From Heliocybe sulcata (lineage: Eukaryota > Basidiomycota > Agaricomycetes > Gloeophyllales > Gloeophyllaceae), in contig ML213508.1 in NCBI GenBank assembly GCA_004369045.1, positions 1-38,604 of the forward strand: DNA of 38,604 nt. The letters run 5' to 3'. The first letter of the stretch is position 1. Every line of letters begins with the position of its first letter. A program made the position numbers and the translations under genes. Below are positions 1 through 38,604 of the stretch, one piece after another. Under the pieces are notes generated by a model. That model made no database searches. It saw only the letters and a list, made by a program, of their open reading frames with translations, and was not told where the DNA came from.

Positions 1-65
1 CCTAACCCTAACCCTAACCTAACCTAACCCTAACCCCCTAACCTAACCTAACCTAACCCTAACCC
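1..65. repeat. Telomere repeat tract
   Basis: The first 65 bases are uninterrupted copies of CCCTAA with shorter CCTAA variants, that is TTAGGG/TTAGG read on the other strand. This is the standard telomere repeat of most filamentous fungi, and the C-rich strand at the 5' edge is the expected orientation for a left chromosome end. The mixed unit length could be real variation or assembly noise. The tract is short, so the true terminus is probably longer than shown. Confidence 0.95.
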
Positions 66-26678: not shown

Positions 26679-29338
26679 TTACTGCTGACGAGAGCGTTTG
26701 CGAGCAGGAGGCTCTCCTTCCACATCTTCATTCTGTTCATCCTCATCCGCGTCTCCAGCCTTCCACTTCATGTACACTTCTTGCGTAGCCCTCACGATGC
26801 CTGTAAGTCGATGTATACTCTCCTCTATACCCTCATTGAAAGGTGTTTCCAGCGGCTCGAATGGCCGTGCCCGATCATTCGCCGGCCACCCAGACTTGCC
26901 CAGCTCATCATCCAGAGTTTTGATGGCGGACGCGTGCGTCATATACTTATGCGCATGATGGCTCTCCCATGCTACTAGACCGAAGGATTGAATGCACGCC
27001 GTCAAGGGGGGGTTGTGCGATACCACCAGCTCCGTCTGGCCCTGGACTAGAAAGGCGATTTTTCCGATGGCGTCAGGTTGCTCGAAAATTGACTGGCAGG
27101 ATCGCATCGCGTAATTAGTGATAGTGTGGCGGAGAGTCGTGTAGAGCAAGGACCAGTAGAAGGACTCGAGGTCGTGGTAAACCATATGCTCCCCACGATA
27201 ATGTCCCCGTTGGCGCTCAATTGCCATGAAGCATACCTCCCCCTGGTCGCCGATAAGATAATAGATTTGAGTGGACTCGAAAACGCACATACCGTCATTT
27301 CTCGAAGGGTCGACGTAGGACGCCTGTCCTGGAGGAAGGCGGCATATTCAAGATCAATTAAAAACCCTTTTGCGCCGCCCTCAGCTTGAGGATCCGCACT
27401 GATCATAATGTTGTTCACGCTGATGTCACGGTGCAGGATCTGAAATTTTTCAAACAGGTACTGATGTCCTAGATCACGGTGACATCTCGTCAGCAGATAG
27501 GAGGGGGGTCGTTGTATTCTACTCCCCTTTCATGGCATCCCTAGTCGCTTCAACCAGCTCGCGCGAAGACCGGAATTGGGATAGAGGGATGCCGATAGAC
27601 TCTATAACGATACGCTGGTGAATGCGAAGAGAATACTGCTCTTTCCCATAAAATTTGTTCAACCGCTCTGCCCAGGTGAGGTGCGTGGACTGTGGCTCTC
27701 CCTTGTCCAGGTCCACTCCACGGCGAGCACGCGCCACACCAAACACCGGCCCAGCGGCGTGAACTTTAGCGTAAATGGCGCTTTCTGGCAAACGGTCTGC
27801 GTGGCGCCAGGTCTCCTTGATCACCACAAAGTCAGCCAATTCAACCCTTCCTCGTTCAGAGTTTAGCACAGAGGCTCGAACCGCGAGCCATGTCCGCGTG
27901 CCACGGCCGAAAAGGGACGGAGACGTGAACAGCGCAGGACCAACGCTGATATATCGCTCGACTGTCTCCTCCTCCGATGCACCAGACTTGGCAGTGTTTG
28001 GCACAACCTGAACATCGCCTCCTGGGCTGTAGTTTCCAGAGAGGCGATCGTCGACATCGCACATAGGCACGGAGATCACAGCGCTCTCCGAGAGCAGATC
28101 GACGGCACGCAGGTTCATGTTCTTTCCGAGAATACCAGAAGCCGACGCAAAGCGACAAGACGACGCCAGTATCTCCAAGTCGCCAACATCGTATGCCCCT
28201 GGTGCCACAGTTGTATCCAGCCCCATGGTCCCGCCGGAAAACACGGAGGACGCGTACAGAAACTCGAGAACGAGCTCAGGCTGCGCCATGTACTCGAACG
28301 CCTCGGTAAACATGACCGAAGACTGATCACATCGCCAGAACCGCAGGGTATCTCCATACGCTCCTAACCCAAGGAGGTAACACCGAGGACGCGCTCTGAG
28401 CACGAGAGCGCTGGACTCGCAGAAGTGGTTCCAGGTTATAAAGCTGCTCGGCTCAGCCTTGTCGTGCTTGAATGGGTCTTGCTCCACGTCAGGCTTGGCT
28501 TCCACGGTGACGAGCGCGCGCGTCCAGTGCATTTCGGAGGAGTCCTTGAGCTGCAATGCAAGACCCGGGCCTACTGGGGCTTCACCGGTGAGCCTTTGCT
28601 GACTCGCGTAGTCGACGCGAAACGCGGGCAGCTTCATGTCTGCTAGGACGTCACACGCGTACTGAAGCGCTGTTCTCTACCAGATATGACACGTCAAATT
28701 AACCTTACATGAACGACCTCGTAGAGTGGTTCGGGAACGACGTACCATAGGTGGATACATAAGCTCTTCACTCTTGCGTTCGCACGCCTTGTCTACCTCT
28801 CCCCAAAGCGTCTCGAACTCGCGGGCGAAAGTCGACCCAAGACGAGCACGGTCTGTACCAGGGAAGCATAGCTTAAGGAACCACTGCATCTCGAACGGTC
28901 CTGCCGCGTACAGAATAGCTCCCGTTCCAGCATGCCACCTCTGCTGCTCGAAGTCCTTCTCCCATCTATGGGTCTGAAATAGGGGGAGGAGTTATATTCG
29001 CCGGTTTGACCGCGAGTCGGTTTGGGCGTTGTGAGCATATTGGAGGCATGGGATGTGTAAGAGATAGTTGAATTGCAATGAGGGTGGTTCGTCCACAAAT
29101 TCGCCACCGATGCAGTCAGGGGCCGTGGTAGTGCATATCGACCGGACGTCGGTGTAATGGCCCGAGTATACAGAGTCCAAATAAACAGTCATAGCAGGAG
29201 ACAAATCCAGAGAGATCCTGGTCAGCATTCACCAATGAGAAGAGGGTCTGCTCATACGTAGCATAATGACGAGGGCGCAGGGGAGCTTGTGCACGACGTG
29301 CTGCTGCTTGCTGTCCTCGAGGAGGTTGGTTGTGACAT
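26679..29338 (-). CDS. FunK1-family protein (copy B), splice donor defect
   Basis: FunK1 kinase-like gene. Best model by comparison with copy A: exons 29258-29338, 28746-28973, 27527-28676, 27293-27468, 26679-27242, giving 732 residues in a continuous frame. Landmarks are a Ser-rich start (MSQPTSSRTASSSTS), FPGTDR, RPRCYLLG, VLEFLYASS, FGRGTRTW, VVIKETW, HRDISVNNIMI, IDLEYA, DLESFYWSLLYTTLRH and a tail ending ARKRSRQQ. The donor after 27527 reads G|GGGAGT where copy A has G|GTGAGT. Without splicing, translation stops two codons later (stop at 27519), before the catalytic loop. A weak GTTGAA donor with acceptor TTTCAG could give an in-frame, shortened product. First-intron limits are uncertain: bases 28974-29257 resemble copy C and contain a conserved SHAxNMLxTPKP frame that may be coding. 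It may be a pseudogene. Confidence 0.7.
27363..28805 (-). repeat. Inverted repeat, left arm (1,443 bp)
   Basis: This arm mirrors 34969-36411: position x here corresponds to 63,774 minus x, with no indels. I saw no mismatch inside; the translations of all six frames agree across the 372-codon core. Identity stops at a T/A difference on one side and at a TTT/TTC difference on the other, after which the copies are only related. Confidence 0.93.
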
Positions 29339-29492
29339 GTTGCTGTGCCTATATCAATGTCAACTGTTTTCGCCTCGTGTAGAATGTCGATTGTTTTGCC
29401 TCATGTAGCATGCAGAGCGCACAGGCAGGGTATCCTCGCGCGCACCAAACGAGCCACAGTCACGGTCACTATGACGTGCCTGCCGTCCGGGA

Positions 29493-29513
29493 CACGTGAC
29501 CCCGTAACGAGAC
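29493..29513 (-). promoter_or_regulatory. Shared FunK1 upstream block (copy B)
   Basis: On the minus strand this reads GTCTCGTTACGGGGTCACGTG, one base different from the copies upstream of C and D. It ends about 155 bp upstream of the copy B start codon and contains the palindrome CACGTG, the core site of bHLH-type regulators. Function is inferred from conservation and position only. Confidence 0.5.
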
Positions 29514-29724
29514 GCGGCATTTTGCAGCCACAGTCACATTAATTTTCCTTTGTCGCAGTACAGCCCTTCGTACCCAAACCGTCCAGTGAGTAAAATATCA
29601 ACCAACCATACAGACAAGTGAGACAACAGGGAGTGCGCAACATTACTCATGAAAGGACCTGCAGGCATGCCACTTGCGAGAGCGTTTTACTACCAGAAGA
29701 CTCTCTCGCTTCCGCCTCTGCATC

Positions 29725-30830
29725 CTATCCATGCTCCTTCTCATCTCCAGCTTTCCGCTTCAGCGCCGCCTCCGAGCTGCGCGCATTTTCAATGACACCC
29801 GTGACAGCCGAGAGTTCTTTGCTCGCGTCGTCCAGCGCCTCGTTGGAGGGCGCATTGAGCGGTCCTCACGACATCGCGTGGTTATTGTCTGGCCATTCGG
29901 GCTTCCCCAGCTCATCATCCAGAATCTTGATTGCGGGAGTGTGCGTCATACGCCTTTCTGCCTTGCGCGCCTTATAGCTCTTCCACGCTATCCGGCGAAA
30001 GGACCGGAGACTGGCCGTCAAGCGCTGGTTATTAACCACCTCCAGCTCACCTCGCCATCGACTAAGAAAGGCAATTTTTCCCAAGGCATGTCGCACCTCA
30101 AACACAACTACCCAGTTCTGTGGGCCTTTGTTCATCTTTGTGTGACGGAAGGTGGCGAAGACGCGGGACCAGTAGAAGGGCTTCGACGAGCTCACGTATG
30201 GACTGGATCCGGCAAAAAGGGGTGCCGACAGACTCGACGACGATGTGCTGATGAATTCGAAGAGACAACCTTCGTTCTTTAGGAATTCATTCACCTTCTC
30301 TGGTGCTGTACGGTGGACGGAACTCACGTCCCTGTCATCCATATCTACGGTGCGGCCAATACATCACGTGCGACCCGTAGCGGTGGGCAATCCCTACCAT
30401 TTCATCTCATCGACAGTGTATAGTCTCAGAATGAGGGTCGTATCGAGTCCCACGTTCTTGCCAGATAAGATGGAGGAGGCATAAAGGAACTCGAGAACGC
30501 ATCCGGGGTTATTCGTGTAGCTGGATAAGGTCGAAAACGAGTCATCTGTAAAATCTGAAAATATTACCGTACACTCCCAAACCAGGAAGATAACACAGAG
30601 GACGAGTATGCAAGGCAATACTTGCGTAGTACGGGACTTGAATCCACATCTTGATGTCCTTACGACATATGACGCCCACCTCGCTGTCCATCCCGAGCGA
30701 ATCTTGATCATCATTCGGCTTAGCTATAATACCAAGGGCATGTGTCTAGTGTCTCTTAAGAGTTCTTTTGGTTGTATACCCAGGTCTGGTGCTGCATGGT
30801 GTTTCTCGGGATCACTAGAGAGCATGCCCT
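29725..30830 (-). pseudogene. FunK1 pseudogene P2 (internal deletions)
   Basis: Broken FunK1 copy upstream of copy B on the same strand. Reading minus, recognisable pieces are RPLCYLPGLGVYGNIFRFYR, then a stop, CVLEFLYASSILSG with GLDTT, then a jump to VDMDDRDVSSVHRTAPEK. The segment holding FGRGTRTW and the kinase lysine is missing. RSIRELVEA then fuses directly to FYWSRVFATFRHTK, so the catalytic loop exon is also gone, along with two introns. The C-terminal exon reads on through ALGKIAFLS, LTASLRSFRRIAW and DDELGKPEWPDNNHAMS, meets TGA, and continues in frame to KRKAGDEKEHG before a stop at 29725. The upstream FunK1 block is still present at 30934. Not functional as a kinase. Confidence 0.82.
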
Positions 30831-30933
30831 GACCTGTGTGGTCGACAGCGCAGTACGTGCGTCTACGCGCGCCAAATTAGCAGCGGCACAGTCACTGCCA
30901 CCGTCACGTGCCAGCACGCGTGGAGACGGAGAG

Positions 30934-30955
30934 CACGTGACCGCGAAATGTAGAC
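30934..30955 (-). promoter_or_regulatory. Shared FunK1 upstream block (P2 copy)
   Basis: On the minus strand it reads GTCTACATTTCGCGGTCACGTG, sharing the CGCGGTCACGTG half with the copies at 34261 and 37616 but diverged on the other side. A downstream GCTAATTTGGCGCGCG also matches copy C. It marks the original promoter of pseudogene P2. Confidence 0.45.
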
Positions 30956-31121
30956 GGAATATCTAACTTTTCTTACATCATTACACCGGCATCCGTTGGT
31001 CCACAATCTCAGCACAGCCTCCAGCACGCTTCGGATACACTGATCGCAGAACATTCCCTTCTCCATTCCCGACGTAGGTACAACTCCCATTAGGACCAGC
31101 CCATTTCTGCCCGCCCCACCC

Positions 31122-33154
31122 TCACATCAAATCCCCAAACGCCGCCATCTCCGCCGGCCCGCTCTCCTTCACCCCAATCTCCCAATACCCATAAATAATC
31201 GTCACCGCCATCAAAATCCCCGTCCCATTCCCCAGCGCACCCATCAAATCCGCCACCACACTCAACAAGCCCAACAGCGCCCCGCCCAGCGCCGCCGCCG
31301 TCGGGATCACTCGTTTCAGCTCGCGGTACATCGACGCTTCCCGGTGCCCCGCCATCACCAACTGCTGATCCTTCAACTGCCTCGCCACCTCCCGCGGCCC
31401 GCTCCCGCTGATCTCGATCCACGTCTTGCTGAACAGCGCGCACGCACTCAGCGTAAATACGATATAGACAAGCGTGTGCACCGGATCGAGCAGCGCCGCC
31501 CGTAGCGTGTGCGGCGGGGACATGTAGTACGCGAGGCCGGAGACAGCTTCGAGCTGCGGCGAGTCTTCCATCGGCTGTATCATAGTTAGTTTGTAGAAAC
31601 AGACGGAAGGGAGGAGTAAGCGCACCTCCCAGTACCCGAGCAATCGCACGAGGAAGTTATCCGGGAAGCGCGAGGCGAGCATCTGCGAGACGATGAACAC
31701 GTTGCTCGTCAGCGTGCTCTGCAGCATGATCGGCATGTTCGAGGTGTAGAACAGCTTGACGGGGTAGCTTCCACGCTGGCCACGGAAGCGGTTGCTCTTC
31801 ACCGGAATCTCGACGCGGAAGCCCTGCAGATAAATGACCACCACAAACACCGCGAGGGTCGCGACGAGGTTCATCACATTTGGCAGCCTCTCCCGCCAGA
31901 ACGCCTCCCGCAGCGCGCGGCCCTTGTCGTTCCACGTAAACAGGAGATGGAAGAGCGCGACGATGGCGCCCTCGAACTCGGGCCCGCGGCCGGTGTTGAG
32001 CGTCGTGGGGGAGAAGGCCTTCCAGACGATGGACTCGCAGATGTTGGTCGCGATGAAGAGCGAGATGCCGGAGCCGAGGCCGTATCCTTTTTGGAGGAGC
32101 TCATCGAGGAGGATGACGATGAGCGCCGCGGAGACGAGCTGGATTATGAGCAGCAGGCACACGCCGGCGCCCAGATCGGAGGGCTGGCCGTAGAGCCCGG
32201 TGAGGACGTAGACGGTTGCCTGGCCGAGCGAGATTATAAGGGCAAAAACTGAGGGGAAGTCAGTATGAGATGAGACCGAGCTAAGGGCAACGCAGAGGAA
32301 GGCAAAAGAGGGAGGAGGAAGAGCAACACGGTGGCAACGGCGACAAAACCCGCAACTCTAAGCGTAACACCGGGAGCAGAAACCAAGCGGGACATGAGAC
32401 TCGAGAGGGGTGGGGTAAAGCGAGACGCGCAATATCCGTTCCGCATTCTCAGCTATCAGGTCTGCGTGCTCCCCAAGTGCGTCTCAGTGGCCGCTCTTAG
32501 CTAAGTCCGAGTCTGAGCTATTCGTTCTTCAGGTCATCCCCCGAGGCGGAGACGCCCATTTCTCTCAGAGGAAGGAGAAAGACAGGAGAGGAACCTAAAC
32601 AGCGAGGCCGGCCGTGTGGAAATACACAGGAGCGCATGGTAGCAAAGAAAGAACCGAGCAATCCACCCCCACTGCAACAGGAACAAAGGTGCAGGGAACT
32701 AGGTCGAAACAGAGAGAGCCCAAGGTAATCATAAGAGAAAATGACATACGTTTCTGGGCACTGCTGAACAGCGCGCGGTCTTCCTTCAGACTAAAGTCCA
32801 CCTCGATAAGGTTGGCGCCAGCCAGAAGTTGCATGATCATGCCCGAGGTGAGGATGGGAGAGATGCCTAGTTCCATGAGGGTGCCGCGGTTAGAGGCGAG
32901 GATAACACGCAGCCAGTAGAGTGGGTCTGACGAATCCGACGACATAATCCCATACAGAGGCACTTGCGAGCATACCAGGAAAATGAGCAGGGTCACGGCT
33001 GTCCAGAGGATTTTTTGGTTGAAGGGGACTTTGCGGTCTGGCGAGGAGACCTCAGGGAGGATGGGCAGGAATGGGCGGACGAGGTTCAAGAACCGGACTG
33101 GGGGGGGGGTCAGCGTTGGTTGAATAGAATAGAGAAAGACTTACACCCGCTCAT
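31122..33154 (-). CDS. SEC61: Sec61 alpha subunit, ER protein translocation channel
   Basis: Pore-forming subunit of the Sec61/SecY translocon that moves secretory and membrane proteins across or into the ER membrane. Four exons: 33145-33154, 32750-33097, 31626-32248, 31122-31574, giving 477 residues, the usual length. Exon 1 is only 10 bases (ATG AGC GGG T), fixed by the conserved start [20 protein letters not shown]. Other signatures are [24 protein letters not shown], the [14 protein letters not shown] loop, [18 protein letters not shown] (ribosome-binding loop), [11 protein letters not shown] and IIYGYWEIG at the end. Introns are 47, 501 and 51 nt. The 51-nt intron is a stop-free multiple of three, and the 501-nt intron is about ten times the local norm. 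The gene is intact and sits between the inverted FunK1 arms. Confidence 0.96.
32479..32555 (-). other. Possible structured element in SEC61 intron 2
   Basis: Within the unusually long intron, GCGTCTC and GAGACGC can pair (7 bp) around a 63-nt interior that also contains a TAGCT/AGCTA hairpin. On the transcribed strand CTGA abuts the closing stem and GATGA lies about 13 nt inside the other side, loosely like boxes D and C of a snoRNA. The C-like box is too far from the stem for a standard C/D snoRNA, so this is only a suggestion. Confidence 0.15.
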
Positions 33155-34260
33155 GATGAAGGAACGGCTATGGTCAGGTAAGAGTTGTTGGCGACTAGGA
33201 TGCAAACACGGACGTGATAGACGTGGCAGCCAAATAGTCACAAATACATTGCCACGTCGGTTGCAGATAAGATTACGGTAAATCCCGACCTCTGCCATGC
33301 TCCTCCACCTCAACGCGAGACATTTCGTCTACCAATACCACCTCTCTCACTCGCTCTACATAAAGCATCAGGGTGAATCCAGTTTGTGCAGGTGCCTGCT
33401 TACGGGGCGGATTATCAACCCTCTCGGCCTCGCCTCTCTCACCTCGCTGCGACCACGTTTCCGTCTCTCCCCGCTCCTGTGCCTCTATCTCCCTCCGTAC
33501 ACGATCGCGTACAGCAGGGTCAGTTCGGCGGCCTCGGCTAGTTGAAATTTCTTTGTTTCTTGTGTAGTGGGTGTGCTGGTAAGAGGATGGACGAGACGTT
33601 CGCGACTATATATGCGCCTATAATGCTCCACGACTAGGTACGTCACTTTCCTGGAGCTATTTCTAAGCTAGCGCTACCAATATCCTCATCACAGCGACTC
33701 CCGCTAGTCCTGATATATTATTAGGAGCCGAGCATGAAAGACGGATGCCTGCTTACTTGGTCGACCCAGCCTCGTTCAGCATCTCGACATGACAGAACCC
33801 ACCCCTTGCCCATCCGTGGTCGTGGTGGGTGTAGTCATACCTTACATGCGACCATGCACAATTAGAGACTTTTCAAAGGTCGGAGACATGGATGAGGAAT
33901 CCGTCTCTAGCCTCCTGTCCGACTGCTCGTGGATGCTGAGGCCTGAGGAGACGGAGCTGGGATGTCTGTTGGCGGGTTTATCAGTCTATCAGGTATTTCG
34001 GGAGTCGAATTCTGCTGGGATTATACGCTGTCCGCGATGGTGACGGCCTCGGTCGCATGATGAATAATATAGCCGTAAACTCTAGACACGGATGAAGCGT
34101 TGGCAAAGAGAGCTGCAGCTGAAACCGGTGTCTCGTGGCGGGTGCGAAGCCAGAGAGTAGTCCCGCTTGCTAGGGCATCACAGACTGTATGCTGGCTTTG
34201 GCCGATACATAGTTTGATGAGGGAAGATTAAGGTGTCTGTAGCTGCAAAACGCCGCACAT
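33155..34260. other. Intergenic between SEC61 and FunK1-C
   Basis: It holds the SEC61 promoter (pyrimidine-rich stretch near 33360-33500) and spacer. From about 33965 the sequence resembles 37390-37620 upstream of copy D (shared TAGTCTAYCAGGTATTT and AATATAGCYGTAAACT), so the duplicated FunK1 unit includes this spacer. An 84-codon frame at 33789-34043 has no known domain. Confidence 0.5.
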
Positions 34261-34281
34261 GTCTCGTTACGCGGTCACGTG
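34261..34281 (+). promoter_or_regulatory. Shared FunK1 upstream block (copy C)
   Basis: The block ends in GTTACGCGGTCACGTG, 155 bp upstream of the copy C start codon. The same sequence occurs upstream of copy D, and near-copies occur upstream of B and P2. A second shared element, GTGACCGTGAC then GCTGATTTGGCG, lies 60-90 bp further downstream. It is probably a promoter element (inference from conservation). Confidence 0.5.
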
Positions 34282-34436
34282 CTCGCCAGACACGGAAAAC
34301 CACGCAGCGCCGACGAGACAGGCACGTGCTGGTGACCGTGACTACACTCCTGCTGATTTGGCGTGCGAGGACAGCGTCTCGACCGTGTACGTGCCACGCG
34401 AGACGAAACCATCAGCTTCGATACACGCAAAGCAAT

Positions 34437-37116
34437 ATGTCGCAACCTACCTCATCGACGACAACAAGCAGCTGCATGTCGTGGACAAGCTCGTCTGCTT
34501 CCTCATCATTGTGTAATGTACGCGCACATCCCTTGCTCGCTGATGCACACTGACAATTACTTCTCGCTATACATCTCCTGCTACGACTATTGGATCTGCA
34601 CGCTGTCAATATAACGCTGGTTCGGACCGTTTCACCGACGTGCGGTCGTTCTGCTGCCACGGCCCCTGACTGGATCGGCGGCGAATCCGTGGACGTCCCA
34701 CCGACTGCACGCAATTGCAATTCCAATCCAACTATCCCTCACACATCGCATGCCGCCAACATGCTCGCAACGCCCAAACCGGCGAATACAAAACCTCACC
34801 CTATGTCAGCCCCAACGACGGAAGCGGAACTTAGACGGGCACGCTGGGACGGGACCTGTCCTGCACGCAGCCGGACCATTCGGGGTGCATCAGTTCCTTG
34901 ATCTGTGCTTCCCTGGTACAGACCGTACTTGTCTTGGGTCGACTTTCACCGGCGAGTTCCAGACGCTATGGGGAGAGGTAGACAAGGCGTGCGAACGCAA
35001 GAGTGAAGAGCTTATGTATCCACCTATGGTACGTCGTTCCCGAACCACTCTACGAGGTCGTTCATGTAAGGTTAATTTGACGTGTCATATCTGGTAGAGA
35101 ACAGCGCTTCAGTACGCGTGTGACGTCCTAGCAGACATGAAGCTGCCCGCGTTTCGCGTCGACTACGCGAGTCAGCAAAGGCTCACCGGTGAAGCCCCAG
35201 TAGGCCCGGGTCTTGCATTGCAGCTCAAGGACTCCTCCGAAATGCACTGGACGCGCGCGCTCGTCACCGTGGAAGCCAAGCCTGACGTGGAGCAAGACCC
35301 ATTCAAGCACGACAAGGCTGAGCCGAGCAGCTTTATAACCTGGAACCACTTCTGCGAGTCCAGCGCTCTCGTGCTCAGAGCGCGTCCTCGGTGTTACCTC
35401 CTTGGGTTAGGAGCGTATGGAGATACCCTGCGGTTCTGGCGATGTGATCAGTCTTCGGTCATGTTTACCGAGGCGTTCGAGTACATGGCGCAGCCTGAGC
35501 TCGTTCTCGAGTTTCTGTACGCGTCCTCCGTGTTTTCCGGCGGGACCATGGGGCTGGATACAACTGTGGCACCAGGGGCATACGATGTTGGCGACTTGGA
35601 GATACTGGCGTCGTCTTGTCGCTTTGCGTCGGCTTCTGGTATTCTCGGAAAGAACATGAACCTGCGTGCCGTCGATCTGCTCTCGGAGAGCGCTGTGATC
35701 TCCGTGCCTATGTGCGATGTCGACGATCGCCTCTCTGGAAACTACAGCCCAGGAGGCGATGTTCAGGTTGTGCCAAACACTGCCAAGTCTGGTGCATCGG
35801 AGGAGGAGACAGTCGAGCGATATATCAGCGTTGGTCCTGCGCTGTTCACGTCTCCGTCCCTTTTCGGCCGTGGCACGCGGACATGGCTCGCGGTTCGAGC
35901 CTCTGTGCTAAACTCTGAACGAGGAAGGGTTGAATTGGCTGACTTTGTGGTGATCAAGGAGACCTGGCGCCACGCAGACCGTTTGCCAGAAAGCGCCATT
36001 TACGCTAAAGTTCACGCCGCTGGGCCGGTGTTTGGTGTGGCGCGTGCTCGCCGTGGAGTGGACCTGGACAAGGGAGAGCCACAGTCCACGCACCTCACCT
36101 GGGCAGAGCGGTTGAACAAATTTTATGGGAAAGAGCAGTATTCTCTTCGCATTCACCAGCGTATCGTTATAGAGTCTATCGGCATCCCTCTATCCCAATT
36201 CCGGTCTTCGCGCGAGCTGGTTGAAGCGACTAGGGATGCCATGAAAGGGGAGTAGAATACAACGACCCCCCTCCTATCTGCTGACGAGATGTCACCGTGA
36301 TCTAGGACATCAGTACCTGTTTGAAAAATTTCAGATCCTGCACCGTGACATCAGCGTGAACAACATTATGATCAGTGCGGATCCTCAAGCTGAGGGCGGC
36401 GCAAAAGGGTTCTTAATCGATCTTGAATATGCCGCCTTCCTCCAGGACAGGCGTTCTACGTCTACCCTTCGAGAAATGACGGTATGTGCGCTTTCGAGTC
36501 CGCTCAAATCTATGACCTTATAGGCAACTAGGGCACTGTATACTTCATGGCTCTCGAGCGCCAAGATTCAGACTATTCGGGGAAACACAAAGCGTACCAT
36601 GACCTCGAATCGTTCTACTGGTCCCTCGTCTACACTACCGTCCGCTATACTGTCACGAACGACGGTGCGCGATCCTGCAACGGCATCTTCACCCACCGCA
36701 ACTCGAAATCCGGCTTTCTCGCTGACGGCCGAAGGCAGCTGGTGGTATTGGACAACCCGCGCTTGACGGCCTGCATTCGATCCTTCGGCCGAGTAGCGTC
36801 CAAGAGCCATCATGCGCGCAAGTATATGACGCACGCGTCTGCCATCAAGACTCTGGATGACGAGCTAGTCAAGTCGGGGTGGCCGGAGAATGATCCGGCA
36901 CTCCCGCTCGAGTCGCTGGAAACGTCTTCCAATGAGGATTTAGGGGGCAGTCGTCGACTTACAGCCCTCATGCGTGCTTCGAAAGAGATGCAGAGATTGA
37001 AGATGATGCGCCAGGCAGTGCTGAAGCGGAAAGCTGAAGACGAGGATGGGAATGAACAGACCGGAGAAGTAGCATTGGGAGAGCCTTCTGCTAGCAAACG
37101 CTCTCGTCAGCAGTAA
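34437..37116 (+). CDS. FunK1-family protein (copy C), splice donor defect
   Basis: FunK1 kinase-like gene, divergent partner of copy B. Model: exons 34437-34517, 34810-35028, 35098-36247, 36306-36481, 36532-37116, giving 736 residues in one frame. It starts MSQPTSSTTTSSCMS and carries HAAGPF, FPGTDR, RPRCYLLG, VLEFLYASS, FGRGTRTW, VVIKETW, HRDISVNNIMI, IDLEYA, DLESFYWSLVYTTVRYT and a basic tail ending SKRSRQQ. As in copy B, the donor after 36247 reads GG (GGGGAGTAG) instead of GT, so unspliced mRNA would stop at 36255, before the catalytic loop. All other junctions are GT-AG. Outside the identical arm, the last exon differs clearly from copy B and remains open, suggesting constraint or recent inactivation. 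The first intron boundary is uncertain. Confidence 0.7.
34969..36411 (+). repeat. Inverted repeat, right arm (1,443 bp)
   Basis: Reverse-complement copy of 27363-28805, covering the end of exon 2, all of exon 3, an intron and half of exon 4 of copy C. The spacer between the arms is 6,163 bp and contains the 5' ends of both genes, pseudogene P2 and SEC61. Confidence 0.93.
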
Positions 37117-38290: not shown

Positions 38291-38359
38291 GATGGTGCTC
38301 TCGACCGCGCACGTACCGCTCCAGGCGATAACCATCACCTTCGATAGACGCCGAGCAAC

Positions 38360-38604
38360 ATGTCGCAACAGGCCATATCGATGACAGCAAGCAGCAGCAC
38401 GTCGTGTACAAGCTCGTCTGCTTCCTCGTCGTCGTGCGAGGCAGGCGTACCCACCTTTGCTCTATGATGCACGCTGACCATAACTTCTCGCGCTCCGTCT
38501 CCTGCTACGTGTGACGCTAGCTGACTAAGCAGGTGGCGGCACACGCAGATTCAAACAGAGGAGACGGTTTTCAGAACAGTGAGATATTGAGAGACAAGCT
38601 AAGC
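38360..38604 (+). CDS. FunK1-family gene, 5' end only (copy D)
   Basis: From ATG at 38360 the first exon matches the other copies: MSQQAISMTASSSTSCTSSS, then SASSSSC. In copies A-C the exon ends right after 27 codons with GTACGC or GTATGA. Here the site reads GAGGCAGGCGTACC, so the donor is changed or shifted, and the frame closes at TGA near 38468 if unspliced. The homologous spacer (CTGACCATAACTTC then TCCGTCTCCTGCTAC) follows before the window ends. Whether D is intact cannot be judged from this window. Confidence 0.45.

Follow-up and report, generated by a model that had tools for sequence, protein, structure and literature searches.

The window, meaning the whole stretch of DNA that was analysed, comprises the first 38,604 nucleotides of one contig (C6:1-38604) in a 31.6-Mb genome of 51 contigs from Heliocybe sulcata, a wood-rotting fungus. 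It opens on telomere-type repeats and contains, near its far end, two genes of the FunK1 kinase family (PF17667), called B and C here, on either side of a copy of SEC61 (Table 1). B reads leftward and C rightward, with their 5' ends facing the spacer between them and their 3' exons outside it; this divergent geometry, described in an earlier note on the same DNA, is right as judged from the layout of the PF17667 matches. The core exon scores 68.8 bits against PF17667 (curated cut-off 24.1), which places it in the FunK1 family, and a deposited H. sulcata protein, P0001, matches the core exon along its full length without a difference. The start of P0001 agrees by eye with the N-terminus of B, and its cluster consists of two member sequences. 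The start of gene B is uncertain, the candidates being the ATG at 29338 (by analogy) and the ATG at 29038 used in the deposited model; its tail open reading frame spans 26679-27347. When relatives of the core exon were sought among proteins of other strains or species, with 7,997 candidates scored, only the H. sulcata protein itself came back.

Table 1. Features of the subtelomeric FunK1-SEC61 region (positions in the window)
Feature	Position	Strand	Remarks
Telomere-type repeats	1..65	+	CCCTAA-type; contig start
FunK1 gene B	26679..29338 (approximate extent)	-	PF17667 at 27314-27469, 27525-27971, 28203-28544
Outer flank of B	26679..27362	-	HRD-loop exon end, intron, tail exon; diverged from C
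Arm 1, perfect tract in gene B	27363..28805	-	exact reverse complement of arm 2
In-frame TAG of gene B	27519..27521	-	inside tract, just past the non-GT donor position; P0001 ends here
Inner (5') flank of B	28806..29387	-	homologous to C, diverged; best match C inner flank, 72%
Spacer between perfect arms	28806..34968	.	6,163 bp; holds SEC61 and FunK1 remnant
FunK1 remnant between B and SEC61	29677..30661	-	DNA matches
SEC61 (SecY family), in spacer	31122..33140 (approximate extent)	-	PF00344, 207 bits
Inner (5') flank of C	34420..34968	+	best match B inner flank, 72%
FunK1 gene C	34437..37116 (approximate extent; N-terminal frame uncertain)	+	PF17667 at 35230-35571, 35803-36249, 36305-36466, 36526-36633
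Arm 2, perfect tract in gene C	34969..36411	+	exact reverse complement of arm 1
Same in-frame TAG in gene C	36253..36255	+	inside tract
Outer flank of C	36412..37116	+	nearest relative B outer flank, 75%

SEC61 is essential in other fungi. A protein search and a family search of the genome found one full-length copy only, the one in the spacer, and this sole full-length SEC61 found lies ~31 kb from the telomere. A decayed partial SEC61 is present at C6:91968-92812, adjoining another FunK1 copy (locus L039), and the pairing of a partial SEC61 with a FunK1 copy at C6:92 kb suggests an old segmental duplication. Other traces of the family are scattered around B and C. The remnant between B and SEC61 consists of FunK1-tail DNA matches (29677-29762 and 29884-30087) and a FunK1-core match at ~30552-30661, and its open reading frame gave no Pfam match; the first 126 kb of C6 contain four more whole or fragmentary FunK1 copies that match the tract described below. 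The start of another FunK1-like N-terminal region occupies 38323-38509; it matches 34407-34534 at 79% and 29261-29375, in inverted orientation, at 76%. A run of Ns begins 95 bp beyond, directly after the window.

The earlier note had also reported a perfect 1,443-bp inverted repeat around SEC61, which was confirmed to the base: the two arms are exact reverse complements over 1,443 bp, the longest perfect run between them. A DNA search of the genome with the tract found it in two places at 100%, and the next match among the best candidates scored was 79% identical over 635 bp. The tract is embedded in a wider imperfect inverted repeat (27096-28936 and 34838-36678) that is 96% identical without gaps and, when gaps are allowed, 89% identical over 2,609 aligned columns. 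Its inner edge is sharp, with 15 differences in the adjoining 95 bp; at the outer edge there is a shoulder of 79 bp with 4 differences, perhaps an older tract end, beyond which identity drops. The tract runs from the end of an exon through a 69-bp intron, a 1,158-bp core frame and a defective intron into 107 bp of the HRD-loop exon, stopping on the outer side just before a LIDLE motif, which we take to be the DFG position. B and C are the same throughout, including the 69-bp intron and ~385 third codon positions. The chance of 1,443 consecutive matches is ~10^-140 if the 20% divergence of the flanks is assumed to be uniform and independent between sites, and zero differences in 1,443 bp put the divergence since the event below ~0.2% at 95% (rule of three). 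No GC bias of the kind that marks repeated conversion was found, the GC content being 55-57% in the tract and 53-56% in the flanks.

The DNA adjoining the tract within the same two genes has a different history. In genome searches with all four flanks, the counterpart in the other gene was the best match each time among the best candidates, at 75% for the outer and 72% for the inner flanks. B and C were further aligned with two other FunK1 copies on the contig, L039 (C6:89 kb) and L042 (C6:125 kb), and gap-free columns were compared. Between B and C, identity is 77.9% over the 512 inner-flank columns; in the outer flank it is 79.9% over the initial 249 columns and 78.2% over the 426 that follow. 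Their tail exons differ with dS ~0.49, dN ~0.24 and dN/dS ~0.49 (184 codons). Within the tract, where B and C are equal, both are 70.4% identical to L039. Over the initial 249 bp of outer flank the three copies are nearly equidistant (B-C 79.9%, B-L039 81.9%, C-L039 80.3%), while L039 is far from B and C elsewhere (58.9 and 56.1% in the inner flank; 62.3 and 58.6% in the second part of the tail). Because the identity of L039 to B and C is also uneven along the tract, at 56-73% in the 5' two thirds and 80-84% near the 3' end, L039 may itself be a mosaic. The near-equidistance is thus no clean clock, since L039 is possibly mosaic and B and C are closer to each other in other parts of the flanks. 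B and C are each other's closest relatives among the matches, so that the age of their flanks cannot just be equated with that of the third paralogue; judged by these identities, they are sister copies, but old ones.

A perfect tract that ends inside genes, between homologous flanks only 72-75% identical on both sides, argues well for gene conversion, as does the discordance in age between tails with a dS of ~0.49 and a tract with none. The near-equidistance of B, C and L039 at the start of the outer flank points the same way, with the reservation that L039 is possibly mosaic. We therefore regard recent ectopic gene conversion between the old inverted FunK1 paralogues B and C, the process favoured in the earlier note, as very probably the correct reading. 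The two genes would have stood head to head, 6 kb apart, as old paralogues in a FunK1-rich subtelomere when, recently, a stretch of at least 1,443 bp in one copy was overwritten, the other copy acting as template in repair or as partner in recombination. The route was presumably a fold-back, either within one chromatid or between sister chromatids. Either copy may have been the donor, and a crossover, hence an inversion, may have accompanied the conversion.

The alternative that survives best is an assembly artefact, in which the arms were given a single consensus or the spacer was wrongly oriented. The examined parts of C6 contain four runs of Ns, some of rounded length and resembling estimated scaffold gaps (an uncertain likeness), one of them being the run that directly follows the window. 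The assembly may for this reason derive from short reads, with the 1.4-kb repeat not read through. Both arms, however, lie in a single N-free stretch of 38.6 kb and have distinct flanks on all four sides, and the density of differences in those flanks could hardly be hidden by a collapse. We consider an artefact unlikely, and trust the presence of the arms more than the orientation of the spacer: were the reads short, only mate pairs would support that orientation and tie each inner flank to its outer flank.

A second alternative supposes a recent inverted duplication whose flanks afterwards took on the sequence of other paralogues by conversion. Potential donors are at hand in the four further copies or fragments on C6. 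This history nevertheless requires that both flanks of one copy were replaced, and the matches found (best candidates) include no donor closer than B and C themselves, all four flanks pairing with each other as best match; it is accordingly very improbable. A recent duplication of the whole region was rejected for the divergence of the flanks, and a mobile element for the position of the tract, which is internal to FunK1 genes and was found in two near-identical copies.

In a further FunK1 gene of the window (gene A, 11 kb) and in L039, GT opens the intron that precedes the HRD exon, whereas B and C have a non-GT start there; the GT donor is kept in two of the three compared paralogues, L042 also being without it. 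In both B and C the reading frame reaches a TAG at most 8 bases past the non-GT donor position (Table 1). A 37-nt alternative intron starting at the next GT would keep the frame, and is very short; by eye, it would have a branch-point-like CTGAC within a few bases of its end. Since the tract carries the lost splice donor, B and C are probably both truncated or dead kinase genes, and their tails are predicted to be untranslated. The tail exons are still open and have the dN/dS of ~0.49 given above, for which reason the loss of the donor may be recent. The conversion may have spread this loss from one gene to the other.

The predicted truncation bears directly on the proposal in the earlier note that the locus acts as a switch, a crossover between the arms flipping the SEC61 segment and swapping promoters and N-termini between the two kinase tails. 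The arrangement has the appropriate geometry: the genes are divergent, with 5' ends inside, tails outside and 1.4 kb of perfect homology, and the inverted repeats flank a segment that would bear the promoters, as placed by gene direction. Against this, both frames end at the same TAG within the tract, past the non-GT donor, as does the deposited model. Because predicted translation ends in the identical tract, an inversion would leave both predicted products unchanged; what would change is which untranslated 3' part follows each gene, and the direction of SEC61, whose immediate surroundings would stay the same. In the region at C6:88-93 kb, used as an outgroup for orientation, a SEC61 remnant and a FunK1 copy are ordered and directed as are SEC61 and B. 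L039 was scored only at sites where B and C differ, and these sites are non-independent. In the inner flank it sided with B 19 times, with C 11 times and with neither 12 times (two-sided P 0.20); for the outer flank the corresponding counts were 67, 48 and 28 (two-sided P 0.09). Past the stop codons the counts were 35 for B, 17 for C and 22 for neither (two-sided P 0.018), and in the promoter region 0, 1 and 1. L039 thus leans weakly towards B on both sides of the tract, the excess being small, a result that speaks, if weakly, against an earlier exchange of tails. Of what the earlier note proposed, the conversion and the geometry are borne out; the promoter and N-terminus switch is not supported, both frames stopping within the tract, and a functional switch is scarcely credible. 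Inversion between the arms is possible.

Nine FunK1 pairs, hand-picked from the matches rather than drawn from a census of the 114 exon-level matches, were compared across the genome. Four are inverted pairs on the same contig (B and C on C6, and one pair each on C15, C35 and C26). The C15 pair (L010, L013, L055-L058) also contains a perfect inverted tract, of 2,678 bp (C15:91128-93805 and 102435-105112) with an 8.6-kb spacer, and a genome search with 1,981 bp of this tract found it in two places. The C15 tract begins at the inner edge of homology, so that a diverged homologous flank of ~3.1 kb is present on the outer side only; this flank is ~87% identical on average, patchy, and near-identical again at the far end of the part compared. 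No exact run of at least 60 bp occurs in the C35 pair (79% over 2 kb) or in the C26 pair, which is barely alignable. Among the other five pairs, the longest exact run was 320 bp in a direct pair on C27, 83 bp between C28 and C26 and 1,643 bp between C42 and C50, and two C16/C24 pairs had no exact run of 60 bp. These very few pairs suggest that inverted FunK1 copies lying close together undergo conversion recurrently.

The members of the C27 pair (L049, L050) lie 94 kb apart in direct orientation and share 97% identity across 2.5 kb, the longest exact run being the 320 bp given above; they are perhaps the product of another conversion or of a recent duplication. The FunK1 regions of L047 (C42) and L048 (C50) are 99.5% identical over 4.2 kb, and C50 is only 29.7 kb long. 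This pair was rejected as a further case of conversion; C50, a contig of that size, may be an alternate haplotype, or the pair may reflect a recent duplication.

The process envisaged for B and C can be set beside known systems. For the human Y palindrome P6, a mean conversion tract of 2,068 bp is reported, with conversion common and inversion rare (PMC3723533). As at P6, the arms here would have been made identical by conversion in tracts of kilobase scale, with inversion as a possible by-product. Unlike here, the P6 arms are long and more than 99.9% alike as a whole, with 146 conversion events counted (PMC3723533), whereas the present locus shows a single tract between paralogue flanks 72-80% alike, with one event seen. 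In man, inverted repeats are known to give rise to inversions recurrently, an example being HsInv0389, with FLNA and EMD (PMC3961182). The B/C locus resembles that one in having inverted arms around a spacer with conserved genes; the human inversion is described as polymorphic and recurrent by genotyping (PMC3961182), whereas no inversion was seen at the B/C locus, known from one assembly. The FunK1 family itself (Pkinase_fungal, PF17667) is reported to be duplicated, lineage-specific and enriched in non-syntenic regions in Paracoccidioides (PMC3203195). That account concerns the same family and describes duplication, with no conversion tracts in the passages concerned (PMC3203195); the copies B and C appear, in addition, to be truncated. 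Among the literature matches listed, no title was plainly about conversion between inverted or subtelomeric paralogues in fungi or basidiomycetes, an observation by which we do not claim absence from print, and no title listed was that of a Heliocybe genome paper.

The mechanism is thus an ordinary one, well displayed, to which the second perfect inverted FunK1 tract and the shared splice loss are modest additions. A more far-reaching idea is that head-to-head FunK1 pairs, of which there are at least two (C6 and C15), form a recurrent fold-back setting, that their spacers, including the one that holds the only SEC61, switch back and forth in orientation between strains or nuclei, and that dead kinases persist mainly as recombination substrate; we hold this to be unlikely. 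What the locus offers is a case, cleanly preserved in nature, of probable ectopic conversion between inverted paralogues of a mushroom subtelomere, in a region that surrounds the only full-length SEC61 found. In it, conversion may have spread a gene-breaking mutation, the loss of a splice site common to both copies. Together, C6 and C15 suggest that partial concerted evolution can occur in inverted FunK1 pairs, and this would confuse gene counts and dating in the expanded FunK1 family.
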